Shown here one piece after another: positions 9,865 through 48,571 of a stretch of 48,571 bases of DNA. The stretch's first letter is position 1; the number at the start of each line of letters is the position of its first letter. Source of the stretch: a virus; the IMG/VR virus record IMGVR_UViG_3300046714_000131, positions 1-48,571 of that record. The stretch is one strand, 5' to 3'. A model generated the notes under the pieces. It was not told the DNA's origin. It ran no database searches and was given only the letters and a program-made list of their open reading frames with translations. Made by a program: the position numbers and the translations under genes.

Positions 9865-10535
9865 GGGTCGTCGTCACAGGCGCGCTCGGAGACATCGGGT
9901 CGGCGGTCGTGAAGCACCTCGCGGCGCAGGGCCACGATGTCATCCAGGGCACACGCGAGGTGTGTGACGTGACCTCGCTAGACAGCGTGCGCTCGTTCCT
10001 GGGGATGGCTTGGGGAGCGGAGGGCTTCGATGCCCTCGTGACGTGCCACGGCGCTCCAGGCTGCATCAAGGCGTCCTGCGACCTCACGGACGAGGAGTTC
10101 GGGCGCGTGCTCGAGATCGACCTCATTGGCACGTTCCGGGTGTGCCGCGAGGCGGCCAGGTACATGCTGGCGCGCCGGAAGGGCGCGATCGTGAACGTCT
10201 CTTCGATCCACGCCCTGGCGGCCTACCCCGAGCGGGCCGCGTACGCTGCGGCGAAGGCCGGGGTGTGCGGGCTGACACGGGCGCTCGCCGTCGAGTGGGC
10301 CTTGAGGGGCATCACCGTGAACGCCGTGCTGCCGGGCCAGGTCTTCGACACGCGGCGCACGGATAAGGTCTTCTGCTCACGCATGATCGACCGCTCTCCG
10401 AGTGGAGCGCTCGTCTACCCGGACGACGTGGCGGCTGCGATCCTCATGCTTTTGACATCCAAGGGCATCACCGGCCAGTGCCTGGCGGTGGACGACGGCT
10501 GGACGGCATCTGGCTACTTCAAGTCCCACACATGA
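9861..10535 (+). CDS. Short-chain dehydrogenase/reductase
   Basis: A 224-residue classical SDR: NAD(P)-binding TGALGDIG (6-13), the acidic DVTSLDSV strand end, a CHG segment in place of NNAG, Ser114/115 (NVSS) and the catalytic pair Y128xxxK132 (YAAAK). It would oxidise or reduce a hydroxyl/keto group on a small substrate. The GTG start overlaps the cupin stop (GTGA), so the two are co-translated. In bacterial surface-glycan clusters such SDRs often tailor nucleotide-activated or free deoxysugars; the substrate here is unknown. Confidence 0.9.
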   Translation: MRVVVTGALGDIGSAVVKHLAAQGHDVIQGTREVCDVTSLDSVRSFLGMAWGAEGFDALVTCHGAPGCIKASCDLTDEEFGRVLEIDLIGTFRVCREAARYMLARRKGAIVNVSSIHALAAYPERAAYAAAKAGVCGLTRALAVEWALRGITVNAVLPGQVFDTRRTDKVFCSRMIDRSPSGALVYPDDVAAAILMLLTSKGITGQCLAVDDGWTASGYFKSHT

Positions 10536-11308
10536 GCTGGAAGTGCCCGGAACGGCCAGAGAGCGTCGTCGCGCAGGCGTACAGGCTCGCAGTGCCATTT
10601 GGCCCGTTCACGCGGGTCGTCGAATTCGGCACCAACAGGACGCTGGCCATCACATACCTGAGTACCAGCGAGCTGGAGACGACCGAAGAGCGCCTCCTTG
10701 GATCACAGAGGCCGCTTCCGTATCCAGCAGACCTGGTAATCGCGCTGCATGTGCTGGAGCATACCGAGGACACTGGTACGGCGGTGGCTGATCTGTGGAG
10801 GTGCTCTACAGACTACCTTCTGGTGGAGGTTCCGGCGCTCGAAGCGGAGACGCCAGAGCAAGCCTTCGACGATATAAACCCAGGGCATCTACACCATCTG
10901 TCGATGGGCGACCTGATCCAGGCAGTCGGAGGGGCAGTTATGGCGTGCGAGGCTGTTCGGCATGGACCTTGGCCATGCAATCGCCTACTCGCACATCGGA
11001 ATGGTGCTTGCCTAGCGGCCAAGCAGACAGCCGCAGATATCATCTACGGGAAAGTCGCTGAGATTATCTCGAAGAGTGCGAACGCCGGGGATGCGTACCT
11101 AGGCGATGGATACTCGATGCGGCAGTTGTTGAAGGCTGGAGTCCCAGCTCTTCCGGTGTACGACACGTTCAAGCGACCAGCGCCGGAATACTTCAATGGG
11201 AGGTTTATCCTTACGCCACGATACTTGCCGACGCGCCTAGAGATGATCGAAGGCCTCAATCACACCCAGAGTTACATAGACCCATGGGAGAAACTTGCGC
11301 ACACCTAA
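10532..11308 (+). CDS. Putative class I SAM-dependent methyltransferase
   Basis: The product has 258 residues with an ATG overlapping the SDR stop. The N-terminal third has a Rossmann-like order: a first strand with an acidic end (RVVEFGTNRTLAI) and an ALHVLEHTED segment, the typical HVLEH motif of sugar- and lipid-modifying methyltransferases after strand four. The glycine-rich loop is degenerate (FGTN instead of GxGxG), and the C-terminal part (PALPVYDTFKRPAPEYFNG) is unfamiliar. It could be an O- or N-methyltransferase acting on a sugar, or a related non-methylating fold. Confidence 0.6.
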   Translation: MSWKCPERPESVVAQAYRLAVPFGPFTRVVEFGTNRTLAITYLSTSELETTEERLLGSQRPLPYPADLVIALHVLEHTEDTGTAVADLWRCSTDYLLVEVPALEAETPEQAFDDINPGHLHHLSMGDLIQAVGGAVMACEAVRHGPWPCNRLLAHRNGACLAAKQTAADIIYGKVAEIISKSANAGDAYLGDGYSMRQLLKAGVPALPVYDTFKRPAPEYFNGRFILTPRYLPTRLEMIEGLNHTQSYIDPWEKLAHT

Positions 11309-12413
11309 CGAATTGATCTCCGAGATAGAGCGCATCCGCGCCCGCAACAACGGCGCCTGGATGGACCTGGTGCGCCTAGCCTGGAAAGAGGCACCTGACG
11401 AGGCGCGCAAGATCAGCGCTGCGATCACGGAGAACGATGCGGCCATCCTGGAGCTCTCGAAGGAGATGGCGCAGCCGCGTGAAGCGCCCGTCGTGCGTAA
11501 CGGCGTGCTCATCCCCGGTGGCGGGATCCTGCACACCTACGCTGTGAAGGAGGCGCTCGCTCTCGGTCTGGTGCCGATCGTCACAGACAGGGATCCGAAG
11601 TGCCCATGCGCATCCATCCCAGGCGTCGTGTTCCATGAGATGGACTGCTACGACACGGAGTCCCATGTCGCGTTCACCACGAAGCACAAGACGGGCCTGA
11701 TTGGGGCCTTCTGTGGAGGGGCGGAGACGCACGAGCAGGTAGCGGCGGCGGCAGATGTGCTCGGATCCACCTGGGTGAAGCCGCGCACGTCACGCATCTG
11801 CCGTGACAAGACGACCTGCAAGCTCACTCTGCTTGATGCCGCGATCCCTACGGCAAAGTTCGTAGAGAGAGGACCGGCGATCTTCAAGCCGGCGCGCGGC
11901 TCAGGCTCGCGCGGCGTGCGCCGCTGCCTGGTGTCATCTGGGACGACCGGCGGGCACTTCGAGGAGATCCTGGAGGGGCCGGAGCAGTCCGTCGAGATCC
12001 TGATGGTGCCAGGCCGCCAGTGGCACGGCGTGAACGTCGTGGACCGCTACTTCGCCTGGGTCGATGACCAGCCGCTCGAGTGGGGGCACACGAACCCGGC
12101 ACGGCTTGCCGAGGACCAGATCTCGGAGCTCTACAAGCTCACCTACAACACCGCGCGCGCCGTGGGCGCTGACGTGGGCTTCTTCAAGTGCGACACCATC
12201 TGGACGAAGGACGGGCCGAAGGTCCTGGAATGCACCCCGCGCCTCTCGGGGGGCTTCGACAGCCAGCTCTCGACCCCGTGGTCCTCTGGCCGCAACCTGC
12301 TCCGGTACGGCCTCCAACTCGCCTGCGGGCTGCCGCTCGACGATAGCTTGCTCGAGCACAAGCGCCGTGAGTCCGTGACTGTCATCCACAGGCCTCACCT
12401 GGCGACGCTGTGA
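11295..12413 (+). CDS. ATP-grasp enzyme with N-terminal helical extension
   Basis: A 372-residue protein, start read as TTG at 11295 (14-base overlap with the previous gene; a TTG at 11313 is an alternative). Residues 1-60 form a helical segment (RARNNGAWMDLVRLA) of a type I recall, unverified, beside nonulosonate genes. Residues about 70-370 resemble CarB/PylC-type ATP-grasp ligases: a Rossmann N-domain (GVLIPGGGILH), the lysine-containing nucleotide strand AIFKPARGSGSRGV, and the metal/ATP segment KVLECTPRLSGGF. It should join a carboxylate to an amine or similar group. In this operon it may attach an acyl or amino-acid substituent to a sugar; the substrate is inference. Confidence 0.75.
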   Translation: MRTPNELISEIERIRARNNGAWMDLVRLAWKEAPDEARKISAAITENDAAILELSKEMAQPREAPVVRNGVLIPGGGILHTYAVKEALALGLVPIVTDRDPKCPCASIPGVVFHEMDCYDTESHVAFTTKHKTGLIGAFCGGAETHEQVAAAADVLGSTWVKPRTSRICRDKTTCKLTLLDAAIPTAKFVERGPAIFKPARGSGSRGVRRCLVSSGTTGGHFEEILEGPEQSVEILMVPGRQWHGVNVVDRYFAWVDDQPLEWGHTNPARLAEDQISELYKLTYNTARAVGADVGFFKCDTIWTKDGPKVLECTPRLSGGFDSQLSTPWSSGRNLLRYGLQLACGLPLDDSLLEHKRRESVTVIHRPHLATL

Positions 12414-12739
12414 AGAGCCCGGAAGATGTCACACTGAGCGACGCGCTCGAGCTCGCCGAGCGCCTCTCCTACAAGCCCGGCACGGGCTTCTCCGCGAAGC
12501 TGCACCCGTGCGTTGATGGGGTGCCAGAGATCGTCATCTTGATCCTTGAGTACGAAGGCCCTTCATCGACCGGAGACGGAGACATCAGGCTCACTTTCCA
12601 GCGCCCGTATGGAGGGGCAGACCTGATGGGCGAATTCCAGGCTCTAATCGACTTCTACGAGAAGCACGAGCGCGATGAGTGGCTCAAGCTGGACGGCAGG
12701 CGCCTCGTGGATCCACACCCCGAGCTCAAGCCTGGCTAG
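12410..12739 (+). CDS. Small hypothetical protein ending the sugar operon
   Basis: The product has 109 residues from a GTG in a GTGA overlap with the ATP-grasp gene. It has an N-terminal helix (SDALELAERLSY), a beta region (EIVILILEYEG) and a C-terminal acidic helix. No family recognised. Its last 14 bases overlap the end of the convergent minus-strand gene. Confidence 0.65.
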   Translation: MKSPEDVTLSDALELAERLSYKPGTGFSAKLHPCVDGVPEIVILILEYEGPSSTGDGDIRLTFQRPYGGADLMGEFQALIDFYEKHERDEWLKLDGRRLVDPHPELKPG

Positions 12740-18119: not shown

Positions 18120-19571
18120 TCAATAGATCCACCCAGCAGGGTCGGCCGTACCGAGAGAGGCAGCGAGCGCCATCTTCGTCGCGAAGCCATCCACGATGGT
18201 CTCCGTCTCACTCAGGGCGAACGTCTGCTCACCGTGCATGGCGAACGCATCTGTGAGGCTCTCTGTGTCGCCCGAGGCTTCCTTGAGGGCGAAGACGAAC
18301 CCATCGCTCAGCGTCTCGGTCTCGCCCTCCACCTGGGCCAGGGCGATGCCGAGGGCCGTCAGCGTCCCGGGCTCGGATGCCACAGAGAAGAGCAGGCCGA
18401 AATTCGCGCCGGTCCCGCCGGCCCATGTCGCGCGCTGCACGACGTTGCCCTGGTGGTCATATTGGAGGACGGCCACGTCCTCTTGCCGCGTGTGCGCGTC
18501 CGTCGTGGCGCGGTCGGCCGGGATGCTGATGCCCTCGCGCGTGTGCCAAGCGATTGCGCGCGAGGCGTAGCTTCCCGTGACGAAGTATGACATGCAGGAC
18601 GCGAGCGGTCCGTCCTGTTGAGCTGCATCGACCGCCGTGAGCAACGTGCCCATCCCGAGCACCATCCCAGGAGTGAACCCGTACGCCGTGAAGTTCTGGA
18701 GCGTCTCGGACGCGGCGAGCGAATGGTTGGCCACCCCCAGGCGAACGACACCCGAGAACTTCAGCGCCAGGTAGTGCGCGTTGACGGTCCCGGCGTCCGA
18801 CTGGTGCGTGAAGCCGGAGGCCGGGAAGGCCGAAATTGTCGATACCTCGCGGGCGCGAGTACCGGAGTTCATGTGTCCGAAGGCGTTGGCGCTGCGGATA
18901 AATCCGTCTGCGTCCGTCGGCTCCGTCGCGTCGTCAGCGTTGATGTGCGCGCAGACTTGGGCCAGCGATGCCTTGACCGCGAAGCCGATGTTCGGGAACG
19001 CGCCGATCCCGTTGGCCGGCGCTGTGCTGTTGGCGGTGTCGGATGCCGCGAAGATGACGAGATCCGGCGAGAATGTTCCAACGCCTGTATTCCCTACGGG
19101 TTCGGTCGCGCTGCTCGTGGTGGAGGAGACCGCATCGGCTGCGGCCCGAGTTAGGCCCGCGAACAAGATGGCCGTGATCTTGCCGGTGATGGTGCATGTG
19201 GTGACGTTCATGCGAACGCCGCCAGCGATGGACGAACCGTACTGGGCCTCAAGCACGACGGTGCCGGCGAGCGTCGTGTCCGTCAGGCTGATCGCGTGCG
19301 CGGTCGTCGTTGAGAATCCGGTCGCTGGCCCGGTGCCGTTGCCGTCCTCCGAGAAGGCCGACAGGGCTTGGTTTCCGCTCGCACCCGAACCGCTCTCGGC
19401 TGACACGAATCCGATGCCGATGTCCGCGCCAGCGCGGTCGGAGTTGTCGGTCGTCTCGCGCGTCACGAAGAAGACTGCGGCCGAGAACGCCTGCGTGATG
19501 GAAGGGTCGGTGAAGTCGAGGTTGCCGGTGGCCGAGACCGTCTTCGTGACTACCGCGATCTGGTCAACCAT
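18120..19571 (-). CDS. Tail fibre-like protein with C-terminal TET repeats
   Basis: A 483-residue protein from ATG 19571 (a GTG at 19580 is possible). Almost everything is Ser/Thr/Ala/Gly-rich beta structure, with two or three copies of a domain that begins with a PDLVIF or PGMVLGMG strand, a fold I associate with phage fibre lectin-like domains. The C-terminal 95 residues carry three copies of a TETxxDGF motif shared with the neighbouring protein encoded at 19564-21381. It is probably attached to the tail and contacts host surface glycans. It overlaps the previous gene by 8 bases. Confidence 0.65.
   Translation of the reverse strand: MVDQIAVVTKTVSATGNLDFTDPSITQAFSAAVFFVTRETTDNSDRAGADIGIGFVSAESGSGASGNQALSAFSEDGNGTGPATGFSTTTAHAISLTDTTLAGTVVLEAQYGSSIAGGVRMNVTTCTITGKITAILFAGLTRAAADAVSSTTSSATEPVGNTGVGTFSPDLVIFAASDTANSTAPANGIGAFPNIGFAVKASLAQVCAHINADDATEPTDADGFIRSANAFGHMNSGTRAREVSTISAFPASGFTHQSDAGTVNAHYLALKFSGVVRLGVANHSLAASETLQNFTAYGFTPGMVLGMGTLLTAVDAAQQDGPLASCMSYFVTGSYASRAIAWHTREGISIPADRATTDAHTRQEDVAVLQYDHQGNVVQRATWAGGTGANFGLLFSVASEPGTLTALGIALAQVEGETETLSDGFVFALKEASGDTESLTDAFAMHGEQTFALSETETIVDGFATKMALAASLGTADPAGWIY
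18190..18335 (-). repeat. TET repeats, second protein (3 copies)
   Basis: Three copies of a (D/E)TE(T/S)(I/L)xD motif are encoded here (GETETLSDGF, GDTESLTDAF, SETETIVDGF) at roughly 20-residue spacing. The DNA repeats the core GTCTCxGT on the plus strand. The same unit occurs eight times in the adjacent gene. Confidence 0.8.
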
Positions 19572-21381
19572 CGACTTCACCTCGCGCTACACCAGCGCCG
19601 TAGGTGAACCCAGCCTCAGCGCCCGCGCCCATGAGCGTCCCGCGATTGATGCCTCGGAATCCAGCAGCGGTCACCAGCACCGCTCCGTCCGTGATCGTCT
19701 CCGTGTCCCCGGACGAGAACACCGTGCCGAGATAGAGGAACGGCGTGTCGGTGATGGTCTCGGTGTCGTTCCCGAGCAGCGTGCCTGTGAGCGAGAAGCG
19801 CAGGCCGTCGTCGATCGTCTCCGTGTCGCCATCGACGAAGAGCAAGTCCCCAGCCGAGACCGTGACTGCCACGAAGTCATCCGTGATCGTCTCTGTGTCC
19901 GAGAAGGACACAGGCGCAGCAGCCAGCGCAGCGAACGAGTCGTCGATCGTCTCGGTGTCCGCCGATGGGAACGCGAGCGTCGTGACGACGAAGACCGCGC
20001 CATCGCTGATCGTCTCCGTGTCGGCGCTGGCTTGCGCCAGCATGAACGCGGTGCCGTCCGCGATCGTCTCGGTCTCGGCGTTGGCCGAGACGGCTGCCGT
20101 GAACAGCGCAACGAAACCGTCACTGAGCGTCTCGGTGTCGTTGCCGAAGAGGAGCGGCACCTCCTCGATCGCCATGTAGGCGGTCGGGCGGTCGTCGCCA
20201 GGCGTGGTCGTCGCCGTCGTGACGTTGCCCGTCCAGCCAGTCGCATCGAACGATGTGAACGTCGCACGCCAGTCATCGACTGCCGCCGTGCTCGGGATGC
20301 GGATGATGTCCGTGGCAGAGCTGGTGCAGCCGGCGCTTGATGTCGCCTGGTTGTCACGCCAGAAGCTCGTCCCAATCCCATTGCCGCTAGCACACGCACC
20401 ACCAATGCAGAGCTGCCCAGCGCCGCTGTTGATCGTGTTGATGTTCCCGACGCGGGTGCCGGCGATGAAGAGCGCGATGGGACGGAAGCCAGGATCCGTG
20501 CGTGAGAAACTCCCTGAGGTCGAGGCCGGCAGCGTAGGAGCTCCAGCCCACACGCGGGCGCCGATCTTGAACGAGAAGAGCATGACGCCGAGCGCGCCAG
20601 TGCTGCGTGTCGTGAGATCAAAGCCCGTTGAGTTATAGGCGGTGACCTCGAGCGTTTGCCCCTCACTCACGACGCCGGCCGTGCTCGTGAGTTGCACACT
20701 GACGCGATCGTTGTGCGTCTCGCAGCCGGCGGATGTGGATGTGGCCTTCCTGTTCTCCGCGCAAGATGTCGTACACGCTTGCGTGATTGACGGCAGACGC
20801 CCGGAGAATCCGACGGAGAGCATCCCTGGAGCGGACTGCCCATCCGCCACGAAGGCTTGGCCGACCGAGACCGCGATGATCCCGTCTGGGGTGGTGCCAA
20901 GCGCTGTAGAGGTGCTGACCGTGTTGATGACGGCCGAGCTCGTGATGTCTTCGACCGCGCACGCGAAGACATCTCCGTAGAAGAGATAGATCTGGCCGAC
21001 GACGGCGATCGCCGAGTCCCATGTGATCGAGATCGAGTCTGTGCCTAGCGCTGTCGCCGCACCTTCCGCGCCGAGGCCCAGGTTGCCGGTCGCGGTGAAC
21101 TGCGCCACGGTCGCCGTGTCGAAGCGAACGCCGGTATCAGCGCTCGCGGTGGCGACGTTGTTCTCGCCGTAGTCGCACACAGCGCGCTGGTTCGTGCCGT
21201 CGTACATGCCGACGCTGATGCGCTTCGGCGTGGTGATGCTGTCGGCCGCCCCGCTCGCCGTGAGCACCACGATGGCGCCCTTCGCCGTGAGGCCCGTGGG
21301 CTGGGACGAGACGGTGTAGGTCTTGGAGCCTGCGGCCGTCGTCTCCGCTACGTCGATCTTCCTGATGGCCCAGGCGGCCAT
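19564..21381 (-). CDS. Tail fibre-like protein with eight TET repeats
   Basis: A 605-residue protein; the ATG at 21381 lies just after the sulfatase stop. The N-terminal 400 residues hold two beta-sandwich-like domains (KTYTVSSQPTGLTAKGAIVV; DPGFRPIALFIAGTR) with cysteine pairs, resembling phage fibre modules. The C-terminal 165 residues are eight imperfect copies of a 20-24-residue repeat with core DTETIxDG, predicted as short beta hairpins. It is likely a receptor-binding or virion-decorating fibre, coupled to the sulfatase gene. The repeats could vary in number by recombination. Confidence 0.65.
   Translation of the reverse strand: MAAWAIRKIDVAETTAAGSKTYTVSSQPTGLTAKGAIVVLTASGAADSITTPKRISVGMYDGTNQRAVCDYGENNVATASADTGVRFDTATVAQFTATGNLGLGAEGAATALGTDSISITWDSAIAVVGQIYLFYGDVFACAVEDITSSAVINTVSTSTALGTTPDGIIAVSVGQAFVADGQSAPGMLSVGFSGRLPSITQACTTSCAENRKATSTSAGCETHNDRVSVQLTSTAGVVSEGQTLEVTAYNSTGFDLTTRSTGALGVMLFSFKIGARVWAGAPTLPASTSGSFSRTDPGFRPIALFIAGTRVGNINTINSGAGQLCIGGACASGNGIGTSFWRDNQATSSAGCTSSATDIIRIPSTAAVDDWRATFTSFDATGWTGNVTTATTTPGDDRPTAYMAIEEVPLLFGNDTETLSDGFVALFTAAVSANAETETIADGTAFMLAQASADTETISDGAVFVVTTLAFPSADTETIDDSFAALAAAPVSFSDTETITDDFVAVTVSAGDLLFVDGDTETIDDGLRFSLTGTLLGNDTETITDTPFLYLGTVFSSGDTETITDGAVLVTAAGFRGINRGTLMGAGAEAGFTYGAGVARGEVDG
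19675..20150 (-). repeat. TET repeat array (8 copies)
   Basis: Eight tandem units of about 60-75 bases encode the motif (N/G/S)DTETIxDG followed by a hydrophobic strand. The core DNA word ATCGTCTCsGTGTC recurs on the plus strand. No other part of the window except the next gene carries it. Confidence 0.85.
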
Positions 21382-21385
21382 GGGC

Positions 21386-22642
21386 CTACGGAGAGTGTGC
21401 TTGGATCCAGGCCCGATGAGCTGCAACGCGCGTAGCCTGCCCTGGATCGGCGATCAGGTTCACGCTCTCTCCTGGATTGGCGTTCAGGTCGTAGAACTGC
21501 TCCCCGTCCGGGATCGTGTCGCCATCTGTGTCTAGCTGGCGCAGCTTGTAGCCGTCGGCCGAGAGCGATGCCCGGTCTCCGTCAGGGGTGCCCCAGGCTG
21601 TCCCGAGCAGAACGAAGTCGTGCGGCGCGAAGTGAGGAACGTCGTCGAGGATGGGCATGAGCGAGACGCCATCCGCCACGGCCGTACCTCTGGCCTCCTC
21701 CACGCAGGTGGCGAAGATGTCGGCGATGTGGACGAGATCGTTGGCATCGCGGCCACCGTTCGTCACTCCTGCGCCGGCCACGATGAGCGGCACCTTCACG
21801 CCGCGCTCGAAGGTGGTGCCCTTTGCGCGGTTCTGCTCGAAGCCACCCACGACGCCGCCAGGCGTGCCGTTGTCTCCGATCACCCAGACCTGCGTGCTCG
21901 CCAGATCGACCACGGTGAGCATGTAGCCGATCAGCTCGTCATAGGCGCGGATCATGGCCTCGTACTTAGCGCGCTGCGTGGGCGTCAGCGGGTAGCCCGT
22001 AGGGAGCAGCCACGAAGGCGGCCGATGGTAGGGGCCGTGCGGGAGGTTGATGTTCACCACGGCGAGGCGCGGCTGCGTGGCGAGCGTCCAGCCGTGGACG
22101 AACTTGTCGGCCACGAGGAAGGGCTCGTAGAGCTTCTGGAGCTGCGAGGTGCAGCCGCTAGGCGTCGCGTTGACCTCGAGCCAATCGTTGTAGTCGTTGC
22201 CCCCGCACTCATCTACGTTGCCGGGCTGGCCCTCGTACCAGTAGGCGTAGCCCTGCGTGAGCGGCGCGCACTCCCAGGCCCCACCTGTCTGGTTGCCGCC
22301 GATGTGCCACTTCCCGAAGAAGGCAGAGGCGTAGCCGGGCAGCGCCTCGGGCAGGAAGACCTCGGAGAGCGGCGGGGTGTTGGCCTCAGGCGGGAAGCAG
22401 ACGCGGCCGTTCCCGGTGATCCACCAGCGGCCGGTGTTCAGCGAGCGGCGCGACGGAGAGCAGAACGGGTTGGCGTACGCGCTCGTGAAGCGCACGCCCT
22501 GCGCGGCGAGGCCCTCGATGTAGGGCGCATCGACACCACTCGGGACATAGAGGCCCATGTCCTTCGTCGCCACGTCATCGAGGACGATGATTAGGACATC
22601 GGGGCGCGTTTGGAGCGCCAGCGCCAAGAGGAGCGAAAGCAC
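21386..22642 (-). CDS. Type I sulfatase
   Basis: A 418-residue enzyme that should hydrolyse sulfate esters. The N-terminal metal site DD (22-23, in IVLDDV), the formylglycine motif C61-S-P-S-R65 in FCSPSRRSLNTGRW, the GKWHIGG motif (K111, H113), a late GDNG metal segment and a C-terminal QFYDLNANPGESVNL stretch all match bacterial arylsulfatases. The cysteine needs conversion by a host formylglycine-generating enzyme or equivalent. The GTG start gives a short hydrophobic leader (LSLLLALAL). Placed between tail-protein genes and co-translated with them, it may act on sulfated surface polysaccharide as a tail-linked enzyme. That placement is inference; sulfatases are rare in phages. Confidence 0.88.
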   Translation of the reverse strand: MLSLLLALALQTRPDVLIIVLDDVATKDMGLYVPSGVDAPYIEGLAAQGVRFTSAYANPFCSPSRRSLNTGRWWITGNGRVCFPPEANTPPLSEVFLPEALPGYASAFFGKWHIGGNQTGGAWECAPLTQGYAYWYEGQPGNVDECGGNDYNDWLEVNATPSGCTSQLQKLYEPFLVADKFVHGWTLATQPRLAVVNINLPHGPYHRPPSWLLPTGYPLTPTQRAKYEAMIRAYDELIGYMLTVVDLASTQVWVIGDNGTPGGVVGGFEQNRAKGTTFERGVKVPLIVAGAGVTNGGRDANDLVHIADIFATCVEEARGTAVADGVSLMPILDDVPHFAPHDFVLLGTAWGTPDGDRASLSADGYKLRQLDTDGDTIPDGEQFYDLNANPGESVNLIADPGQATRVAAHRAWIQAHSP

Positions 22643-22648
22643 CGCTGC

Positions 22649-23251
22649 TCACGTTCCGAGGAAGGTGTGATTGATGTACACGGTGAGCGTCAGCGAGCTC
22701 GTCTTGTTGATGAACTGCGCCGTGGTCAGCGTCTTGTAGGAGAGGAGCTGGCCGCTCGAACTGGTGGCGCCATTGAAGCGACAGATGCCGAGCGCGCGGA
22801 TCGTGTAGTTGGCCTGCGAGGTCGAGTAGACCCGCTTGTACGTCACGGCGTCGATCGTGCGCCCCGTGTTGTCCGTGTCTGAGTCGGCCGTCTTGGGATA
22901 GCCCGAGGCGAAGGACTGGCGCCCGGTGTAGGTGCCGCCCAGGCCGACGAACTTCCCGAACGTGGCCGTCTTGCCGCCCGAGGCCACGGTGATCTTGTAG
23001 CTCTTGGCTACGACCATCATGCCCTTGTTGAAGGTGAGCGTCGGCGTCTCGACGGCACCACGCTGCGCGTAGTACTTGTCGCCCTGGTCCGTGACGATGT
23101 TGGGACCGACTTCGACGGCCTGCACGACCCTGCCAGTGCGCGCGTCCTTCGTGACGAGCACGCAGGTCTCACGGAAGCGCTGCTTCTCTCGGCCGGTCTC
23201 GTCGTGCTTATAGAAGGCGGGAGCCGCTACGGTCTTTTGCTGAGCATCCAT
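22649..23251 (-). CDS. Structural (tail/baseplate-region) protein
   Basis: The product has 200 residues. It contains the segment EVGPNIVTDQGDKYYAQRG followed by beta-rich sequence, a pattern I know from minor virion proteins near phage tail fibre genes. The ATG lies within the end of the preceding gene (25-base overlap), and it is followed closely by the sulfatase gene, so all are coupled. The function within the virion is unknown. Confidence 0.65.
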   Translation of the reverse strand: MDAQQKTVAAPAFYKHDETGREKQRFRETCVLVTKDARTGRVVQAVEVGPNIVTDQGDKYYAQRGAVETPTLTFNKGMMVVAKSYKITVASGGKTATFGKFVGLGGTYTGRQSFASGYPKTADSDTDNTGRTIDAVTYKRVYSTSQANYTIRALGICRFNGATSSSGQLLSYKTLTTAQFINKTSSLTLTVYINHTFLGT

Positions 23252-23865
23252 CGTTCGATCCTTGCGCCGTTGGCGCGGTAGTGGCGCATCGAGAGAGCGA
23301 GCATCTTGCGCTCGACTTCCCAGCGGAACTGGTAGCCCTCGTCAGGCGCTTCCTGCCAGTCCTCGAGCATGGGGCTCGAGTTGCCGGCGAAGTCTGCGCC
23401 CAGGAGGTTGATCTTCGTGGCGCCTGCCGAGAGGAGCCAGCCGAGGAGCGAGAAGAGGGTGGGGACCACGGGCGCGAGCCCGTTCTCGTCCTTCATCTCG
23501 TCCATCGGGGTCTCGTGCCAGGCGTAGAGGCGTTCCATGGCGCCCGGCTCGATGTACTTCTGCCAGAGGATGACCTTGCTGTCGGTCGTGAAGAGCTTGG
23601 TCTCGGGCGGGAGGTGCGGGATGGACCACTCCCAGAGGTTCCTGGGGTCGTCGATCGCCGCCCACATGTCCACGGGGACGTAGCCCGAGAAGGCGAGCGC
23701 CCGGTTGACGGCCACCACAGGCCCCTCGAGCAGGCTCCCCTCCAGACGCTCTGGGTTGCGCCAGGAGCTAGGCCCCTCGCAGATGACGTTGACGGCCTCG
23801 CAGGGTGTCTCAGGCCAACTGGCGGCGAATGCGGGCGTCTGGGGCTCTAGGATCGTCTCCGGCAC
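23227..23865 (-). CDS. GPS-motif Rossmann-like protein, possible glycosyltransferase (DUF115/MptE or GT42-like)
   Basis: A 212-residue protein from a leaderless-type GTG (TAGGCT 13 bases upstream). It opens with VNVICEGPSSW, continues to VVAVNRALAFSG and DMWAAIDDP, and later has INLLGADFAG. The order GPS-loop, VxxNRAL and an acidic turn is shared with DUF115/MptE-like proteins (the Maf flagellin glycosylation factors belong here) and with GT42 sialyltransferases. A second copy of the pattern is at 46123-46902. It may transfer a nonulosonic acid made by the phage pathway; this is inference from motif and context. Confidence 0.5.
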   Translation of the reverse strand: MPETILEPQTPAFAASWPETPCEAVNVICEGPSSWRNPERLEGSLLEGPVVAVNRALAFSGYVPVDMWAAIDDPRNLWEWSIPHLPPETKLFTTDSKVILWQKYIEPGAMERLYAWHETPMDEMKDENGLAPVVPTLFSLLGWLLSAGATKINLLGADFAGNSSPMLEDWQEAPDEGYQFRWEVERKMLALSMRHYRANGARIERWMLSKRP

Positions 23866-26214: not shown

Positions 26215-27081
26215 ATGGGAACTCGCTTCGTCGCGGAAATAGGTTCGAATCACAACGGGGATCTCGCCCGCGCGCTCGCGCTCGTGGAGGCGGCTGCCAA
26301 GGCGGGCTTCTGGGCCGTGAAGAGCCAGCAGTACGACCCTGAGACCCTCTTCTCGGCCGAGGCGCTGCGGCACTCGCCGAGCCTCAAGGAGCGCCCACGC
26401 TTCCAGCCGGCGTGGCACGAGCACCTCGCTAAGGAGGCGCACAATCACGGTCTCCAGTATGGCATCAGCGTCTTCGACCCAGGGTCTGTGGAGGTTGCCG
26501 CGCAGTACGCGGACTTCCTGAAGGTCAGTTCCTACGAGATCCTAAACCTAGGCCTCATTCGCCGAGCGAGCGCCGCTACGTCGCGCTTCGTCTTCTCCTC
26601 TGGCATGGCCTCGATGGAGGAGTGCAAGACAGCGCTCGACGCCTGCGCGCTCATGTGCTCGAAGACCGTCCTGCACTGCGTCTCGGCCTATCCAGCCTCA
26701 TGGAAGGCCTGCAACCTCGCGGCAATCGACAACATGCAGAAGCAGCTCTGCGTGCCGATCGGATGGTCAGATCACACGCGAGACGAGGAGGTCGTGCTGC
26801 GTGCTGTGCGCCGCTGGCGCGTGACGATGGTGGAGGTGCATCTGGACCTCGAGGACCAAGCCGGCGCGGAGGGCCTGGCCCACTGCTGGACGCCCACCAT
26901 GATCGCTCCGGTGATCGAGCAAGCGGACGTGATGCCGGCGGAGATGGAGCGCTGGACGGCCATGGATGGTCACGGGCTCAAGGACCCAGCCAAGTGCGAA
27001 CTCGAGGAGCGCCGCTGGCGGGCCGACCCGTACGACGGCCAGCGCCCCAGGATCGAGCACAGGAGCTACCTGCGGAGATGA
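26215..27081 (+). CDS. NeuB/PseI-family nonulosonic acid synthase, short form
   Basis: A 288-residue TIM-barrel enzyme that should condense phosphoenolpyruvate with a hexosamine-type aldehyde to form a nine-carbon acid. Diagnostic segments: VAEIGSNHNGD (6-16), VKSQQYDPETLF, GISVFDPGS, LKVSSYEILNL, SSGMASMEE, HCVSAYPA, and PIGWSDHT followed by MVEVHL. Family members are about 335-360 residues; this one ends without the C-terminal SAF (antifreeze-like) domain that completes the active site in a dimer. It may therefore work differently or use a separate partner. It is transcribed opposite to the other sugar genes from its own promoter. Confidence 0.88.
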   Translation: MGTRFVAEIGSNHNGDLARALALVEAAAKAGFWAVKSQQYDPETLFSAEALRHSPSLKERPRFQPAWHEHLAKEAHNHGLQYGISVFDPGSVEVAAQYADFLKVSSYEILNLGLIRRASAATSRFVFSSGMASMEECKTALDACALMCSKTVLHCVSAYPASWKACNLAAIDNMQKQLCVPIGWSDHTRDEEVVLRAVRRWRVTMVEVHLDLEDQAGAEGLAHCWTPTMIAPVIEQADVMPAEMERWTAMDGHGLKDPAKCELEERRWRADPYDGQRPRIEHRSYLRR

Positions 27082-32784: not shown

Positions 32785-33579
32785 TCAGCTTCCCGAGAAG
32801 GTGTTGAAGTAGTTCTGACCCTGCTGCTGCCCGCCATAGCCGTAGCCGCCGGGGTGCTGGCCGAAGAGCCAGGAGAGGTCCATCTGCTGGCCACCTTGTC
32901 CGCCACCGCCGCCTCCGAAGCCGCCCATGCCGCCGTACACGCCGAGGCCTGTCTGCGCGCCGGTCAGGAAGCTCTGCCCCATGCTGTTCGGGATCTCGGG
33001 CATCGGTCCACCACCGCCCCACGGCGACGCGCCGTAGAACTCTCCCATCGTTCCCATCTGCGCCAGGTTCGCGCCGAGTTGTCCGCGCTCTGCCGCGAGC
33101 CCTGCGAGCTGCTGTGAGCCTCCCGCTTGCGCCTGGGAGCGTCCCATCGCCAGATCTCCGTAGAGGCCCGCGAGCCCCTCGTCGATCCCCTGCGTCTGCC
33201 GCGTGAGGTCTGCGTTGATGCCGCGAGACGGGCCGGTGATGCTCGAGGTCAGCGAGCCGAGGCCACGGTCTGAAAGGTTCTGCTTCGCACTGGCTTCGAG
33301 CTGCGTCGCGCGATCCAGGGCGCCCTGCTTGCCGGCGCGGCCCACACGGCTCGCCTCCTTGCGCGCAGCGTCGTAGCCGCCGACGAGTTCCTGGGTGGCC
33401 TTGCGCGTCAGCCCCTCGCGCTGCGCGAGCTCGCGTCCACGGATGGACTCCGTGGCGTTGATGGCACCCTTGAAGCGCTTGTTGTAGCGCTTCTGTTGGC
33501 GCTTCTTGGCCTTCGACGCCAAGTAGTCCTGGGTGAAGGCTGCTGCGCCTCCACCTAGCGCGGCGATGATTGCGGGCAT
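32785..33579 (-). CDS. Internal virion protein, glycine-rich C terminus
   Basis: A 264-residue protein. An N-terminal hydrophobic Ala/Gly stretch (PAIIAALGGGAAAF) is followed by a basic helix (ASKAKKRQQKRYNKRFKGA), a helical middle and a Gly/Gln/Tyr-rich C terminus with GGGGGG and GYGYGGQQQG, probably disordered. This composition is usual for short internal proteins that sit between the nozzle and the core. Its start overlaps the sulfotransferase end by 25 bases. Confidence 0.65.
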   Translation of the reverse strand: MPAIIAALGGGAAAFTQDYLASKAKKRQQKRYNKRFKGAINATESIRGRELAQREGLTRKATQELVGGYDAARKEASRVGRAGKQGALDRATQLEASAKQNLSDRGLGSLTSSITGPSRGINADLTRQTQGIDEGLAGLYGDLAMGRSQAQAGGSQQLAGLAAERGQLGANLAQMGTMGEFYGASPWGGGGPMPEIPNSMGQSFLTGAQTGLGVYGGMGGFGGGGGGQGGQQMDLSWLFGQHPGGYGYGGQQQGQNYFNTFSGS

Positions 33580-34130
33580 GTGGCCTCCATGGGTTCGATG
33601 ATCTTCGTGGCGGCTTCGATCGCCGCGTAGTCGTTCTCAACGCCGAGGTACTTCGCCAACTGCGCGACTTCGAGCGCAGGGCACATGCGCGCCCACTCCA
33701 GGCCGAACGTGCGATCCGGGCGCACGCCGTCCAGCGCGCTGCGGATCTCATCCTGATCTTCCAGGGAGAGTTGCGGGTAGCGCGCCATCGACTGCTCGAT
33801 CTCCTTGTCCTCACGCTCCGTCACCAGCAAGAAGTCCGCACGCGGGCGCAGTTCAGGCAGGTAGAGCGCGAGGTAGGGCGACTTGATGCAGATGCCCTTG
33901 AAGCCAAGGACGCTGGCGGCAGCCTTCCGCTCCAGGATGTAGGCATCCCAGTCGATCTTGCGGCGCGCCATCAGCTTCTGGGTCAGGAACGGATCCTCCC
34001 AGTCGCTGCGCCACGCGGGAGGCGCGGGCGCCGGGATCCATGTCGCCACGGCGAAGCCAAGGCGATGCACGATGGCGGCGGCGAGCGATGTGCCCGAGCG
34101 CATCAGGCCAGTGATGAGCACCACCTTCAT
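33555..34130 (-). CDS. Sulfotransferase family protein
   Basis: A 191-residue protein with the 5'-phosphosulfate-binding loop LMRSGTSLAAA (9-19), the hallmark of PAPS-dependent sulfotransferases, and later FKGICIKSPYLALYL and DFLLVTEREDKEIEQSM, corresponding to the 3'-phosphate region. It would move sulfate from PAPS to a hydroxyl or amino group. It is shorter than most family members but all core segments are present. It lies inside the virion-protein operon, coupled to its neighbours (ATGA at its start), so it is expressed late. Its acceptor may be a glycan or a virion protein; the genome also encodes a sulfatase. Confidence 0.8.
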   Translation of the reverse strand: MKVVLITGLMRSGTSLAAAIVHRLGFAVATWIPAPAPPAWRSDWEDPFLTQKLMARRKIDWDAYILERKAAASVLGFKGICIKSPYLALYLPELRPRADFLLVTEREDKEIEQSMARYPQLSLEDQDEIRSALDGVRPDRTFGLEWARMCPALEVAQLAKYLGVENDYAAIEAATKIIEPMEATCPQSSPR

Positions 34131-45233: not shown

Positions 45234-45788
45234 CTACGACTCCGCAAGGCGGCGTTCCGCCTCGGCGAAGTCCTCGGGCGTGTTCACCATCAGGTAGGAG
45301 GCGGGCACCAGATTGAGGTGCGGCGCTGCACGCTCGAACCAGTAGTAGCCCGCGTGGCTCCAGTCGGGCGGCTCCGTGGACTTGTCCGCTTCCTCCCAGT
45401 CCTGTTGCGTGCCGCAGTGCAGCGCGCGTGGGATGAAGGCTTTGCCAGCCTTGTGGACGGCGGCGGCAGCGATCCACTCGGCGCGCATGAATGGGGCGTC
45501 TCCACAGACCCGCACCAGCCGGTCTGGTTCGAGCTCGGCCGCCAGGCTCGTGTAGCGGCTCAGCACGTCCTCGAGCGAGCCCCTGCGGTACTCCATGCGC
45601 TGCTCCTCCAGCCAGCGCGCCAGCGGGTCATCCATGCGCGTGTCCGAGGTGAGAACCACGCGCCTCCAGGGGCCTCTGCAAGCGTCCCAGACGCGGCGCA
45701 GCATCGGGACGCCATGGAGGGGCATCAGGACCTTCCCCGGCAGCCTAGAGCTTCCTAGGCGCGCCTGGATCCCAACTACGATGCTCAT
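45234..45788 (-). CDS. SpsF/PseF-type cytidylyltransferase
   Basis: A 184-residue enzyme expected to activate a nonulosonic (or related) acid with CTP, giving a CMP-sugar. The nucleotide-binding loop IQARLGSSRLPGK (7-19), the segment SLEDVLSRY (71-79), and RVCGDAPF (93-100, with catalytic-type Asp97) match SpsF/PseF proteins of surface-polysaccharide pathways. Typical members are about 230 residues, so this is a compact form lacking part of the C-terminal dimerisation region. The ATG overlaps the preceding stop, and it is the last sugar gene before the portal. Confidence 0.85.
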   Translation of the reverse strand: MSIVVGIQARLGSSRLPGKVLMPLHGVPMLRRVWDACRGPWRRVVLTSDTRMDDPLARWLEEQRMEYRRGSLEDVLSRYTSLAAELEPDRLVRVCGDAPFMRAEWIAAAAVHKAGKAFIPRALHCGTQQDWEEADKSTEPPDWSHAGYYWFERAAPHLNLVPASYLMVNTPEDFAEAERRLAES

Positions 45789-46126
45789 GGCTCTCGTGGG
45801 AACTCCACGACCTTGACGCCGCGGCGCTTGGCCTTGCGAACCATGTCGGCCGTGCCGCGCCCGCCAGGAAAGGCGAGAACCATGTCTGGGTTGAATGCCT
45901 CCAACATGCGCTGATTTCGCAGAGGGCCAGCGGCTTTCCCATTGGCATCCCAGTCGGCGACGAATGCCGTGTGCAGCACGCGATGCCGCACACACCACTC
46001 AGCCGCGAGAGCATCTGCGCCAGTGGCTCCGCCGGTAGCTACAGCCTCCGGCTGGCATCCATCGAGTGCCAGCCAAACACGGCCACGATCTGAGAAGTCC
46101 CTGCCGCCACAGACGATGACCTTCAT
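45785..46126 (-). CDS. SLOG-superfamily protein (DUF2493, YspA type)
   Basis: A 113-residue Rossmann-like protein. GGRDFSD (7-13), GGATGADALA (about 32-41), GPLRNQRML and AFPGGRGTADMVRKA reproduce the DUF2493/cpYpsA-SLOG family, thought to bind nucleotide-derived ligands. It is frequent in phages; some SLOG proteins act in anti-phage signalling, where phage copies could sequester a nucleotide signal. Here it lies within the sugar cassette, coupled on both sides by ATGA overlaps. A role in the sugar pathway is not indicated. Confidence 0.85.
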   Translation of the reverse strand: MKVIVCGGRDFSDRGRVWLALDGCQPEAVATGGATGADALAAEWCVRHRVLHTAFVADWDANGKAAGPLRNQRMLEAFNPDMVLAFPGGRGTADMVRKAKRRGVKVVEFPREP

Positions 46127-46902
46127 GCCATGAGCACCGCCTGCGGCGTGCGGTACTCGAACTCCACCCCGATCTCCTTGGCGCGCGCCTCCAAGGCCTT
46201 GAGCTGCTCACGTTCGTGCTCCCAACGCTTGAACTTCACCGGGTCTCCGGTCTTGAGCAGCTCGTTGATCTCGCCCTGCAAGCTGTTGCGCATGAGGAGC
46301 GCCGTCTGGTCCTTGCCCTTCGACTCGTTGATCTTCTTCTGCACGTTCCCGAGGGAGCGGCGGTGCTGCTCCAGCTTGGATTGCTGCATCTCGCACTCAG
46401 CCTCCGTGAGGCCTGCCGCCCACGGCCCCATCATGTCGGCGCAGAGGATGCGCACTTTCTTCGGGCGGAACATCAGAACCCTCTCGATCGCGGCCAGCAG
46501 GCCGAACATGTAGCGCTTGACCCCATCCATGCCCTGCACCACGCCGAAGGGCGTCGTGCGGATGCCGACGGAAGCTGGGAGGTACGGTTCCCACAGCGGC
46601 ACCATGTCGATGAGCTGGATTACACCAGCGTCCGGGATGATCGCGCTGCGCGGGCACCAGAGCTGGATGGGCGGCACGAGGTGCCGGGCCAGGTCGAAGT
46701 GCTTCATCAGGTGGACCGGCGAGTCTGCGAACATGCAGAAATCGACCGTGATCCCATGGTCGATCACATCGATTGCCCTGTTGACCGTGACGACCGGGCA
46801 CTCGTCGATCAGGTCAGCGCGCGTCAAGAACTCCCGAGAGGGGCCTCCCGAGATCACGTTCCATGCTTCGGCTCTCTTCGTGGTCGTTGAAGGGGTTGTC
46901 AT
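46123..46902 (-). CDS. GPS-motif Rossmann-like protein, possible glycosyltransferase (DUF115/MptE or GT42-like)
   Basis: A 259-residue protein sharing with that at 23227-23865 the order NVISGGPSREF, VVTVNRAIDVI, DFCMFADSP and a later strand with RILCADMMG. Residues about 165-240 are a long coiled coil (EAECEMQQSKLEQHRRSLGN). DUF115-type proteins include the Maf factors that attach nonulosonic acids to flagellin, and GT42 enzymes are sialyltransferases. In a cassette of CMP-nonulosonate genes this is the best transferase candidate, though the link rests on short motifs. It overlaps the dehydratase gene by 89 bases. Confidence 0.5.
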   Translation of the reverse strand: MTTPSTTTKRAEAWNVISGGPSREFLTRADLIDECPVVTVNRAIDVIDHGITVDFCMFADSPVHLMKHFDLARHLVPPIQLWCPRSAIIPDAGVIQLIDMVPLWEPYLPASVGIRTTPFGVVQGMDGVKRYMFGLLAAIERVLMFRPKKVRILCADMMGPWAAGLTEAECEMQQSKLEQHRRSLGNVQKKINESKGKDQTALLMRNSLQGEINELLKTGDPVKFKRWEHEREQLKALEARAKEIGVEFEYRTPQAVLMA

Positions 46903-47776
46903 TCGATGCGTACCTGAGTGACTGGCCGTTCTTTCTCGGGCCTGTGGGGCGGATGACGAAGTGTGTGCCGGCGCTGGTGGCGAAGCCTGCCTCCATCTCG
47001 GAGATGAGGATCTCGTGCAGCTTCTCTCCGATGGGGACGCCGATCATGTCCGGCTCGGCGTCGGGCAGGATCTCCTTGGCGAAGGCGTAGGCGGTCGAGG
47101 AGCGCAGCTTCGGCACGAAGATCTCGGCGCCCTTCATGTCCTCGATGCGATCGATCACGAACTGCGCGGCGTCCTTCGCCTCCAGCCAGAAGCGCGTGGA
47201 CTCCATGCTGCGCAGCGGGAAGGACCGCGCGCCCTCGGCCTTGAGCCTGTGGAGTGTCTCCACGAACGAGCCGCGCGAGCCCAGCACGTTGCCGTAGCGC
47301 ACGCAGGAGAAGGCTGTGCGTCCTGGAGCGAGCGCGTTCGAGGCCATGAAGATGCGCTCCATGCAGAGCTTCGTTGCGCCGTAGAGGTTGATGGGATCAA
47401 CCGCCTTGTCGGAGGAGACGCCCATGACCTTCTTCACGCCGGCCGTGATCGCCGCCATCACGACGTTCTGCGAGCCAAGCACGTTCGTCTTGACGTGCTC
47501 GAACGGGTTGTGTTCTCCGCTCGGGACGTGCTTCAGAGCGGCGGCATGTACGACAGTATCCACGCCGCGCAGGGCGAAAAGGAGCCGGTCGTAGTCGCGC
47601 ACGTCTCCGATGAGCCAGCGCAAGCGCGGGTCGTCGTCAAGCTCACGACGCATCCGAAACTGCTTATCTTCGTCGCGCGAGTAGATGGCGATGCGCGAGT
47701 AGCGGCCCGAAGACAGCGCAGCAGGAACGAAGGCATGGCCGAAGGTGCCGGTGGCGCCAGTGACGAGGATGTTCAT
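46814..47776 (-). CDS. PseB/CapD-type UDP-sugar 4,6-dehydratase (SDR)
   Basis: A 320-residue extended SDR. It has TGATGTFG (6-13), the family hallmark AAALKHVPSGEHNPFEHVKTN (78-98), and SSDKAVDPINLYGATK (121-136), in which D123, K124, Y132 and K136 correspond to the Asp-Lys and YxxxK catalytic residues of PseB/FlaA1. PseB removes water from UDP-GlcNAc and inverts C5 as the first pseudaminic-acid step. Length and conservation suggest an active enzyme. The ATG overlaps the upstream stop and its C-terminal end overlaps the next gene by 89 bases. UDP-GlcNAc is the likely substrate; a CapD-like exocyclic variant is possible. Confidence 0.85.
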   Translation of the reverse strand: MNILVTGATGTFGHAFVPAALSSGRYSRIAIYSRDEDKQFRMRRELDDDPRLRWLIGDVRDYDRLLFALRGVDTVVHAAALKHVPSGEHNPFEHVKTNVLGSQNVVMAAITAGVKKVMGVSSDKAVDPINLYGATKLCMERIFMASNALAPGRTAFSCVRYGNVLGSRGSFVETLHRLKAEGARSFPLRSMESTRFWLEAKDAAQFVIDRIEDMKGAEIFVPKLRSSTAYAFAKEILPDAEPDMIGVPIGEKLHEILISEMEAGFATSAGTHFVIRPTGPRKNGQSLRYASNDNPFNDHEESRSMERDLGRPLSGVLDAR

Positions 47777-47976
47777 CGAAGGTTCCACGCCAGAAGTTTG
47801 GCTAGTTGGTGGTGGTGGACGTGCGTCGACACCTCCTGCGTGGCCTTCCATTGGGAGATCGGCTTCCTATACCCGCAGTCGCATGTCACCGTCCACGGAT
47901 ATAGGTTCTGTTTGGCAACTACGATTGGCCATCCCCAGCCGATGGGTTCGCGCCGGATAGTGTAGTCTCCACTCAT
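47773..47976 (-). CDS. Small His/Cys-rich protein
   Basis: A 67-residue protein with ATGA overlaps on both sides. TCDCGYRK (about 37-44) and HVHHHQ (about 56-61) could bind one zinc ion. Between them lies a short helix (QWKATQEVS). It may be a small structural partner of the neighbouring sugar enzymes or a regulator. No family recognised. Confidence 0.6.
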   Translation of the reverse strand: MSGDYTIRREPIGWGWPIVVAKQNLYPWTVTCDCGYRKPISQWKATQEVSTHVHHHQLAKLLAWNLR

Positions 47977-48571
47977 CTCCACTCCTTCTTGCTGAGGTCG
48001 GGATAGATGCCGGGCAGCGGCTTGTTGTCCTTCGGGAGCGACTGGAGCAGCCAGAGCCCGCGCGCCGCTTCGGGTGGCGTCATGTAGCAGTGCAGGCCCC
48101 ATCCGAATCCTTGCTGCTCGAAGACGTCGCTGTGCTGATCGCGGCCGTCGAATCGGGCGCGCTTGAACCACTTCGCTTCGTCTTCGTCGTCACAGAGGAT
48201 CGCGCCGCCGCGCCCGATGGGCAGATGCTTCGTGGCCTGAAACGACAGGCACGTTAGCGTCCCCGCCTGGTACATATTGGCGCGCAGCCAACGGGCGGCA
48301 TCGACGATGCCTGTGCCGGCGATCATGTATTCGCCGTCCCACTCCTGATCGTGGAAATCCACCATGAACCCAGCGTTGCGTGCTGCTTGAACGACGCCGA
48401 CGTAGGTGTACTTCGGCAGATATATGCCCTCCCGTTCTATGAGCGGATGCATACGCATGAAGCACAAGGCAAGCGCGTTTGTGCAGGAGTCCACGGCGAT
48501 GGCGTAGGGCGCGCCGCAGTAGTCGGCCAGCGCCTTCTCGAACTCATCCACGACGTGCCACGCCTTCCGAT
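47973..48571 (-). CDS. Compact DegT/PseC-type aminotransferase crossing the circle junction
   Basis: The frame runs off the right edge and continues at the left: positions 29-27 (ATG, overlapping the terminase stop), down to 1, then 48549 leftward, giving 201 residues. A GTG at 48551 is an internal codon. Residues 8-40 (HVVDEFEKALADYCGAPYAI; SCTNALAL) and the SFQATKHLPIGRGGA segment with K117, the PLP lysine, match DegT/DnrJ/EryC1 sugar aminotransferases such as PseC. Family members have about 370-400 residues; this one has a shortened middle and lacks the C-terminal domain. It should add an amino group at C4 of a 4-keto sugar if the reduced form is active. Confidence 0.82.
   Translation of the reverse strand, partial: RKAWHVVDEFEKALADYCGAPYAIAVDSCTNALALCFMRMHPLIEREGIYLPKYTYVGVVQAARNAGFMVDFHDQEWDGEYMIAGTGIVDAARWLRANMYQAGTLTCLSFQATKHLPIGRGGAILCDDEDEAKWFKRARFDGRDQHSDVFEQQGFGWGLHCYMTPPEAARGLWLLQSLPKDNKPLPGIYPDLSKKEWR
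48550..48571. repeat. Terminal direct repeat, right copy
   Basis: Identical to 1-22. The bases here are counted twice in the linear window, so the circular length is 48,549. Confidence 0.9.

Follow-up and report, generated by a model that had tools for sequence, protein, structure and literature searches.

Nonulosonic acid synthesis genes in a complete phage genome: a putative shortened route resembling the bacterial sfm system

The IMG/VR virus record IMGVR_UViG_3300046714_000131, analyzed over its full length of 48,571 bases (hereafter the window), represents a phage genome that carries homologues of enzymes for nonulosonic acid synthesis. On the minus strand, from the terminase large subunit gene (terL) to the portal gene, it encodes successively a miniature DegT-family aminotransferase (mini-DegT), a PseB-type dehydratase, the candidate transferase g58, a SLOG/YspA protein and an SpsF-type cytidylyltransferase, while the plus strand carries a NeuB-family synthase (26215-27081) and, at 9148-12413, a KduI/IolB protein, a short-chain dehydrogenase/reductase (SDR), a methyltransferase-like frame and an ATP-grasp protein. 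These features, followed by the second candidate transferase and the flanking phage genes, are:

46814-47776, minus strand: PseB-type UDP-N-acetylglucosamine (UDP-GlcNAc) inverting 4,6-dehydratase, 320 amino acids (PF02719, E 7e-73)
47973-48571, continuing across the circular junction, minus strand: mini-DegT sugar aminotransferase, PseC-like, 201 amino acids (PF01041, E 1.8e-20)
45234-45788, minus strand: SpsF/KdsB-type cytidylyltransferase, 184 amino acids (PF02348, E 1.7e-15)
26215-27081, plus strand: NeuB-family synthase without C-terminal SAF domain, 288 amino acids (PF03102, E 5.7e-38)
9148-9864, plus strand: KduI/IolB-family protein, overlapping the start of the SDR gene (PF04962, E 6e-25)
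9861-10535, plus strand: SDR oxidoreductase, candidate SfmC/FabG equivalent (PF13561, E 1.6e-38)
10478-11308, plus strand: weak methyltransferase-like frame (PF08242, E 0.015)
11313-12413, plus strand: ATP-grasp ligase (amide or acyl ligase), candidate SfmE equivalent (weak ATP-grasp family match, E 1e-4)
46123-46857, minus strand: g58, candidate transferase (weak fold likeness to thiamin pyrophosphokinases and to GT42/GT29 sialyltransferases)
23227-23865, minus strand: g34, smaller paralogue of g58 and candidate second transferase (GPS..VNRA motif)
45785-46126, minus strand: YspA/SLOG-family protein, 113 amino acids (PF10686, E 5e-17)
26-1588, minus strand: terL, upstream neighbor of the aminotransferase gene in the circular genome
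43296-45200, minus strand: portal protein, downstream neighbor of the cytidylyltransferase gene (PHROG 156, E 8.5e-5)

The phage genome is circular or circularly permuted, and its 48,549 bp are complete, since a second record (L002) covers both window ends with 99.98-100% identity and positions 1-22 are identical to positions 48550-48571 (22 bp common to both ends). The aminotransferase gene at the right edge is therefore intact, and genes not found in the genome are truly absent from it. Truncation of the mini-DegT gene by the contig end was ruled out, as the gene is complete at 201 amino acids in L002, which spans the junction; its start codon, at window positions 29-27, overlaps the terL stop codon. 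Comparison with a sister phage (G001) gave pN/pS values of 0.47-0.76 for the pathway genes and of 0.50 for terL and portal, and this purifying selection indicates that the pathway frames are real genes.

The first-pass annotation had reported a PseB/CapD-type dehydratase, a DegT aminotransferase, an SpsF-type cytidylyltransferase and a NeuB synthase, and all four were found where it had placed them, with matches to PF02719, PF01041, PF02348 and PF03102. Its candidate tailoring enzymes at 9148-12739 likewise correspond to the KduI/IolB protein (E 6e-25), the SDR (E 2e-38) and the weak ATP-grasp match (E 1e-4). The late operon in which it had embedded the pathway exists for the dehydratase, the aminotransferase and the cytidylyltransferase, which lie between terL and portal, but not for NeuB and the tailoring genes, which are located elsewhere and on the other strand.

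By its sequence, the PseB-type dehydratase is the clearest family assignment in the gene set. Its top NCBIfam family is TIGR03589 (PseB; 321 bits, E 6e-96, under the cut-off of 407.75), and its top solved structure is FlaA1/PseB of H. pylori (2gn4, E 1e-77), with the SDKAVDPINLYGATK catalytic motif aligned. The protein is 68% identical to its counterpart in the sister phage.

The mini-DegT protein, of 201 amino acids versus about 380 for a usual PseC, has PseC as its top NCBIfam family, at a weak 48 bits versus a cut-off of 423.5. Its putative pyridoxal phosphate lysine (Lys117) and Asp93 are invariant across six homologues. The top Foldseek matches of its AlphaFold model (pLDDT 80) are sugar aminotransferases such as GDP-perosamine synthase (E 6e-7), and the model resembles the large domain of these enzymes. 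The protein is 52% identical in the sister phage, and neither the window, the sister phage nor record G030 encodes any other DegT protein. Homologues also occur inside glycosyltransferase operons of two cultured phages, Flavobacterium phage immuto and Synechococcus phage S-SCSM2R (L121, L120).

The NeuB protein scored 123 bits with PseI and 140 bits with NnaB, both far under cut-off. It keeps the equivalents of E25, K53, Q55, K129, S132, S154, Y186, S213, H215, E234 and H236 of the Neisseria enzyme NmNeuB, residues that we take to have phosphoenolpyruvate (PEP) and metal roles, as in the family at large. The phage protein has the catalytic TIM barrel with its PEP and metal residues. The top solved match is 6ncs, of 290 amino acids, and identity in the sister phage is 48%. 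The equivalent of the metal-binding His236 is followed by 79 residues, versus about 110 in SAF-type bacterial proteins.

A phylogenetic tree built from 89 NeuB proteins placed the window protein in an 18-member clade (support 100/98) of ten viral and eight bacterial sequences. All clade members that were checked are without SAF, and nearly all have an HCW motif at the PGPDH site of standard NeuB. The viral members of its subclade (98/93) are the window, the sister phage and record G003, and the tree as a whole implies three or more switches between viral and non-viral branches. Viral NeuB proteins were found only in the SAF-less form: among 39 NeuB loci on viral contigs, 28-85 residues follow the metal histidine, compared with about 110 in most bacterial relatives, a difference to which the search patterns may have contributed, being built from two SAF-less proteins and possibly biased toward short tails. 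Scans of viral contigs with single NeuB, PseB or g58 sequences returned the twin record or nothing, and two-row alignments were required; cultured phages yielded one weak NeuB match and no SpsF or g58 match. Three viral loci (L073, L076, L095) have two NeuB-like frames near each other, and at one bacterial locus (L143:9107-11028) a SAF-less NeuB lies beside a longer NeuB.

The cytidylyltransferase, whose top solved relative is the cytidylyltransferase 6oew, is 45% identical both in the sister phage and in a third member of the lineage (L111). Its family fits the CMP-sugar synthetase step, with the nonulosonic acid as a putative substrate. Between this gene and g58, the SLOG protein is 63% identical in L111, and its membership in the pathway is doubtful.

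The ATP-grasp protein shares 26% identity over 314 amino acids (E 3e-20) with an ATP-grasp protein encoded in a cluster on plasmid pDCAR1 of Solidesulfovibrio carbinolicus (L003), and 59% with its sister-phage counterpart. The SDR is 28% identical to the FabG protein of the same cluster (E 2e-9) and 55% in the sister phage, where the KduI/IolB protein is conserved at 53%. An SfmE-like ATP-grasp was found in 3 of 31 viral records searched (the window, G000; the sister, G001; and G003), that is, in all three viral members of the window's NeuB subclade and in no other NeuB-bearing viral record searched (Fisher p 0.0003, for records that are related and hence are not independent samples). The KduI/IolB gene is present in 2 of the 31, namely the window and its sister.

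All nine core genes (PseB, g58, ATP-grasp, SDR, KduI, aminotransferase, NeuB, g34 and SpsF) recur in the sister phage with unchanged order and position, their products being 45-68% identical. Not found in it are the SLOG gene, the methyltransferase-like frame and a sulfotransferase-like gene described below; it has a different methyltransferase gene (L105:1430-2200; PF13489, E 3e-19), located in front of its KduI/IolB gene. L111 carries SpsF, the aminotransferase, SLOG, PseB and g58 between terL and portal. In two other viral loci (L115, L116), PseB, mini-DegT, a methyltransferase, NeuB, SpsF and a GNAT protein occur in one stretch adjoining a terminase-like gene. A NeuB, a PF02348/SpsF homologue, a PF02719/PseB-type dehydratase and a DegT protein are together in 10 other viral records (G001, G004-G007, G009, G012, G024, G029 and G030, of which G004 and G005 appear to be nearly identical, since their matches agree in coordinates and scores). 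Every one of the 27 NeuB-bearing viral records searched had PF02348, a count that comes without a background rate from random viral records, and 13 of the 27 had DegT. Record G003 (82.5 kb; locus L062), one of those without DegT, encodes a PseB-like protein, a SAF-less NeuB, a PseG-like protein, a methyltransferase, a split transketolase, an ATP-grasp protein and a cytidylyltransferase, which amounts to nearly a whole sfm-type cluster.

The bacterial relatives of the phage NeuB have as neighbors PseB, PseC, PseG-like proteins, SpsF or PseF, FabG, methyltransferases, ATP-grasp proteins and thiamin pyrophosphate (TPP) enzymes or transketolases; at a gammaproteobacterial locus (L139), NeuB, FabG, a methyltransferase, a TPP enzyme and an ATP-grasp protein occupy one stretch. 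This composition recalls the sfmABCDE genes of Shewanella oneidensis, which encode a 290-amino-acid NeuB-domain protein, a TPP enzyme, a FabG-type reductase, a methyltransferase and an ATP-grasp protein (PMC3765264). They work with PseB and PseC homologues and without clear PseH, PseG, PseI or PseF, and sfm mutants lose the pseudaminic-type glycan of their flagellin (PMC3765264). The phage has a SAF-less NeuB of SfmA size, a FabG-type SDR (SfmC) and an ATP-grasp protein (SfmE), from which we infer that its gene set is sfm-like and that its closest bacterial relative is a system of this type, and not the standard Pse or Leg pathway. The enzyme families named in the first-pass annotation are supported, while its pseudaminic or legionaminic acid pathway needs refining: all scores are under cut-off, and the nearest system is of the sfm type (PMC3765264). 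Its proposal that the enzymes are functionally linked is supported by the conservation in the sister phage, the 10 other viral records and the bacterial relatives in single clusters.

No family match was obtained for g58 in domain scans. Its AlphaFold model (pLDDT 73) gave thiamin pyrophosphokinases as top Foldseek matches (E 2e-3), and sialyltransferases of families GT42 and GT29, CstII and CstI among them, recurred below these (E 0.03-0.2, TM about 0.35). Profile searches of g58 and g34 against solved structures returned low-value noise only. The deeper g58 alignment comprised just five related sequences. Both proteins match the same gene of locus L126 (26% for g34 and 31% for g58), and their GPS..VNRA motif aligns. 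Identities of g58 are 60% in the sister phage and 54% in L111, and that of g34 in the sister phage is 46%.

Of the genes outside the set, terL matched terminases of Streptomyces phages in tblastn (E as low as 7e-37) and is 72% identical in the sister phage, where the portal protein is 70% identical. Adjoining the tail genes, a sulfatase with a hydrophobic N-terminus (21386-22642, minus strand; PF00884, E 9.5e-22) is 38-40% identical in the sister phage. Two adjoining proteins at 18120-21381 (minus strand) have repeated 'DTETI.D'-like motifs near their C-terminal halves, and a weak sulfotransferase-like protein with an RSGTS motif is encoded at 33555-34130 (minus strand; PF17784, E 0.0066).

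We consider it reasonably probable, though well short of certain, that the phage encodes a shortened route to a CMP-activated pseudaminic-type nonulosonic acid, most like the sfm system. From the families, catalytic residues, conservation and co-occurrence, which were observed directly, we infer the reactions, their order, the share of the host, what g58 and g34 do and which target receives the sugar. The PseB-type enzyme would dehydrate and epimerize UDP-GlcNAc to a 4-keto-6-deoxy sugar, which mini-DegT would aminate at C4. The ATP-grasp ligase would then take over from the PseH acetyltransferase and acylate or otherwise decorate an amino group, using an acid made or trimmed by the SDR (plus the methyltransferase in the sister phage). 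After removal of UDP by a PseG-like enzyme of the host, the SAF-less NeuB would condense the free sugar with phosphoenolpyruvate, the SpsF-type enzyme would convert the product to the CMP sugar, and g58 and g34 could possibly transfer it. As a first guess, transfer would take place in the cytoplasm to a virion protein; cytoplasmic transfer to protein, as for flagellin, fits because no flippase or lipid-carrier enzyme was recognized in the genome.

Several observations weigh against this interpretation. The pathway genes are dispersed across the phage genome in three groups. No pathway protein passed the NCBI equivalog cut-offs in the NCBIfam scan, and for this reason the exact sugar and substrates cannot be read from the scores. 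The mini-DegT protein is without about 70 middle and about 120 C-terminal positions of PF01041, some 190 residues of the usual fold, and in record G029 it stands beside a longer DegT; NeuB is without both the SAF domain and the PGPD loop. The KduI/IolB gene has no place in the proposed route. The likeness to sfm is drawn from the published gene make-up and not from the sequences of SO_3261-SO_3265, and neither the scan of the window proteins nor their comparison with L003 gave a match to an SfmB-like TPP enzyme or transketolase. With its weak matches ranked under thiamin pyrophosphokinases, the sialyltransferase-like fold of the g58 model is suggestive only. In L126 and L127, g58 lies before portal, with no aminotransferase, PseB or SpsF match in the terL-portal interval. 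The tie between g58 and the Pse genes is weakened by these two loci, and as they keep g58 without Pse genes there, it may have a separate role of its own.

The two steps that the first-pass annotation had left unrecognized, PseH and PseG, also count against a self-sufficient route. Iterated profiles found no GNAT match for PseH and no PseG match in the complete genome or in the sister phage, so that four of the six Pse steps, and not a whole pathway as had been claimed, are represented. PseG was found by the same approach in the viral locus L062 and in many bacterial loci; as the window and its sister do not encode it, whereas that viral locus does, the phage probably relies on a PseG-like enzyme of its host. 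Some other viral NeuB loci do encode PseH-like GNATs (L063-L066, L069, L075, L096, L115, L116). Because these GNATs and the ATP-grasp protein are found in different viral NeuB loci, the ligase may replace PseH, and we read the two as alternative ways to decorate an amino group.

What the CMP sugar would serve for is a matter of more tentative choice. Possibly, the phage has a miniaturized, self-encoded pathway (aminotransferase of 201 amino acids, SAF-less synthase, short cytidylyltransferase, ATP-grasp ligase for PseH) and uses GT42/MAF-like transferases to place a sialic-acid-like sugar on its own particles. It would then be one instance of a broader trend in which viral lineages acquired a SAF-less NeuB with a CMP-sugar synthetase several times. 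The same CMP-nonulosonate might instead be used on the host, where host glycosyltransferases would transfer it and so alter the O-antigen, capsule or flagellin, for instance against competing phages. Such a use, which we judge rather unlikely, has parallels in known phage nonulosonate genes that act on the host capsule (PMC12053666, PMC6586298); moreover, the host must supply PseG and may itself make such sugars, and the sulfatase could act at the cell surface. The position of the core genes between terL and portal, on the other hand, suggests the timing of virion genes, late for remodeling a host surface, and no integrase or lysogeny gene was noticed, in a genome that was not searched systematically for them.

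The enzymes might also belong to no single pathway, with PseB and mini-DegT making a 4-amino-4,6-dideoxy sugar for one glycan, NeuB and SpsF turning a host precursor into a different acid sugar, and KduI, the SDR and ATP-grasp acting elsewhere. The three separate gene groups would then be natural, as would the presence of the cytidylyltransferase in all 27 NeuB-bearing viral records but of DegT in only 13, G003 lacking it, and the mini-DegT homologues in other glycan operons of cultured phages. All groups are nevertheless kept in the sister phage, and relatives of all but KduI occur in single bacterial clusters, which makes this account improbable. Attachment of the sugar to phage DNA or nucleotides has a precedent of sorts in Yersinia phage YerA41, which has modified DNA and a block of sugar-biosynthesis genes for which a role in that modification was suggested (PMC7354516). 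We regard it as very improbable here, since no nucleotide-hypermodification enzyme was recognized in the genome, the core genes lie in the packaging and structural operon, and the glycans made by the nearest bacterial systems are attached to proteins.

If the proposed route to a CMP-nonulosonate is correct, virions or infected cells could bear virus-made sialic-acid-like coats, with consequences for receptor binding, for superinfection and for persistence outside the host. The gene set further suggests that the sfm-like cluster, which in 2013 was described as known from two Shewanella species, is widespread, and mini-DegT and the SAF-less NeuB are compact enzymes for asking which domains these reactions need.

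Among known systems, sfmABCDE of S. oneidensis is approached by the phage in its NeuB (288 versus 290 amino acids), SDR, ATP-grasp, PseB and PseC-like proteins. Unlike that system, the phage has no SfmB TPP enzyme, has a KduI/IolB protein and a miniature aminotransferase, and carries its genes dispersed in a virus genome, with no flagellin as substrate. With the PseB-PseC-PseH-PseG-PseI-PseF pathway of Campylobacter and Helicobacter it shares homologues of PseB, PseC and PseI and the cytidylyltransferase step; it differs in the absence of PseH and PseG, in a NeuB without SAF, in scores under the equivalog cut-offs and in a cytidylyltransferase that is SpsF/KdsB-like and not PseF-like. The pDCAR1 cluster of Solidesulfovibrio carbinolicus resembles the phage set in PseB (49% identity), NeuB (41%, and SAF-less as in the phage), ATP-grasp (26%) and SDR (28%), whereas it has a full-length PseC, a PseG-like protein, PseF and split transketolase genes, and no KduI. 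In the open-access literature we came across no account of a phage that encodes the de novo synthesis of a nonulosonate, only of tailoring genes, such as epaA/epaB of Acinetobacter prophages (PMC12053666) and phage-encoded O-acetyltransferases (PMC6586298), which act on the host capsule. Like the present set, the Acinetobacter prophage genes are phage-borne and concern pseudaminic or legionaminic acids, but the sugar that they alter comes from the host. Phages known to be involved with nonulosonates thus modify host-made sugars, whereas this phage appears to carry steps of the synthesis itself.

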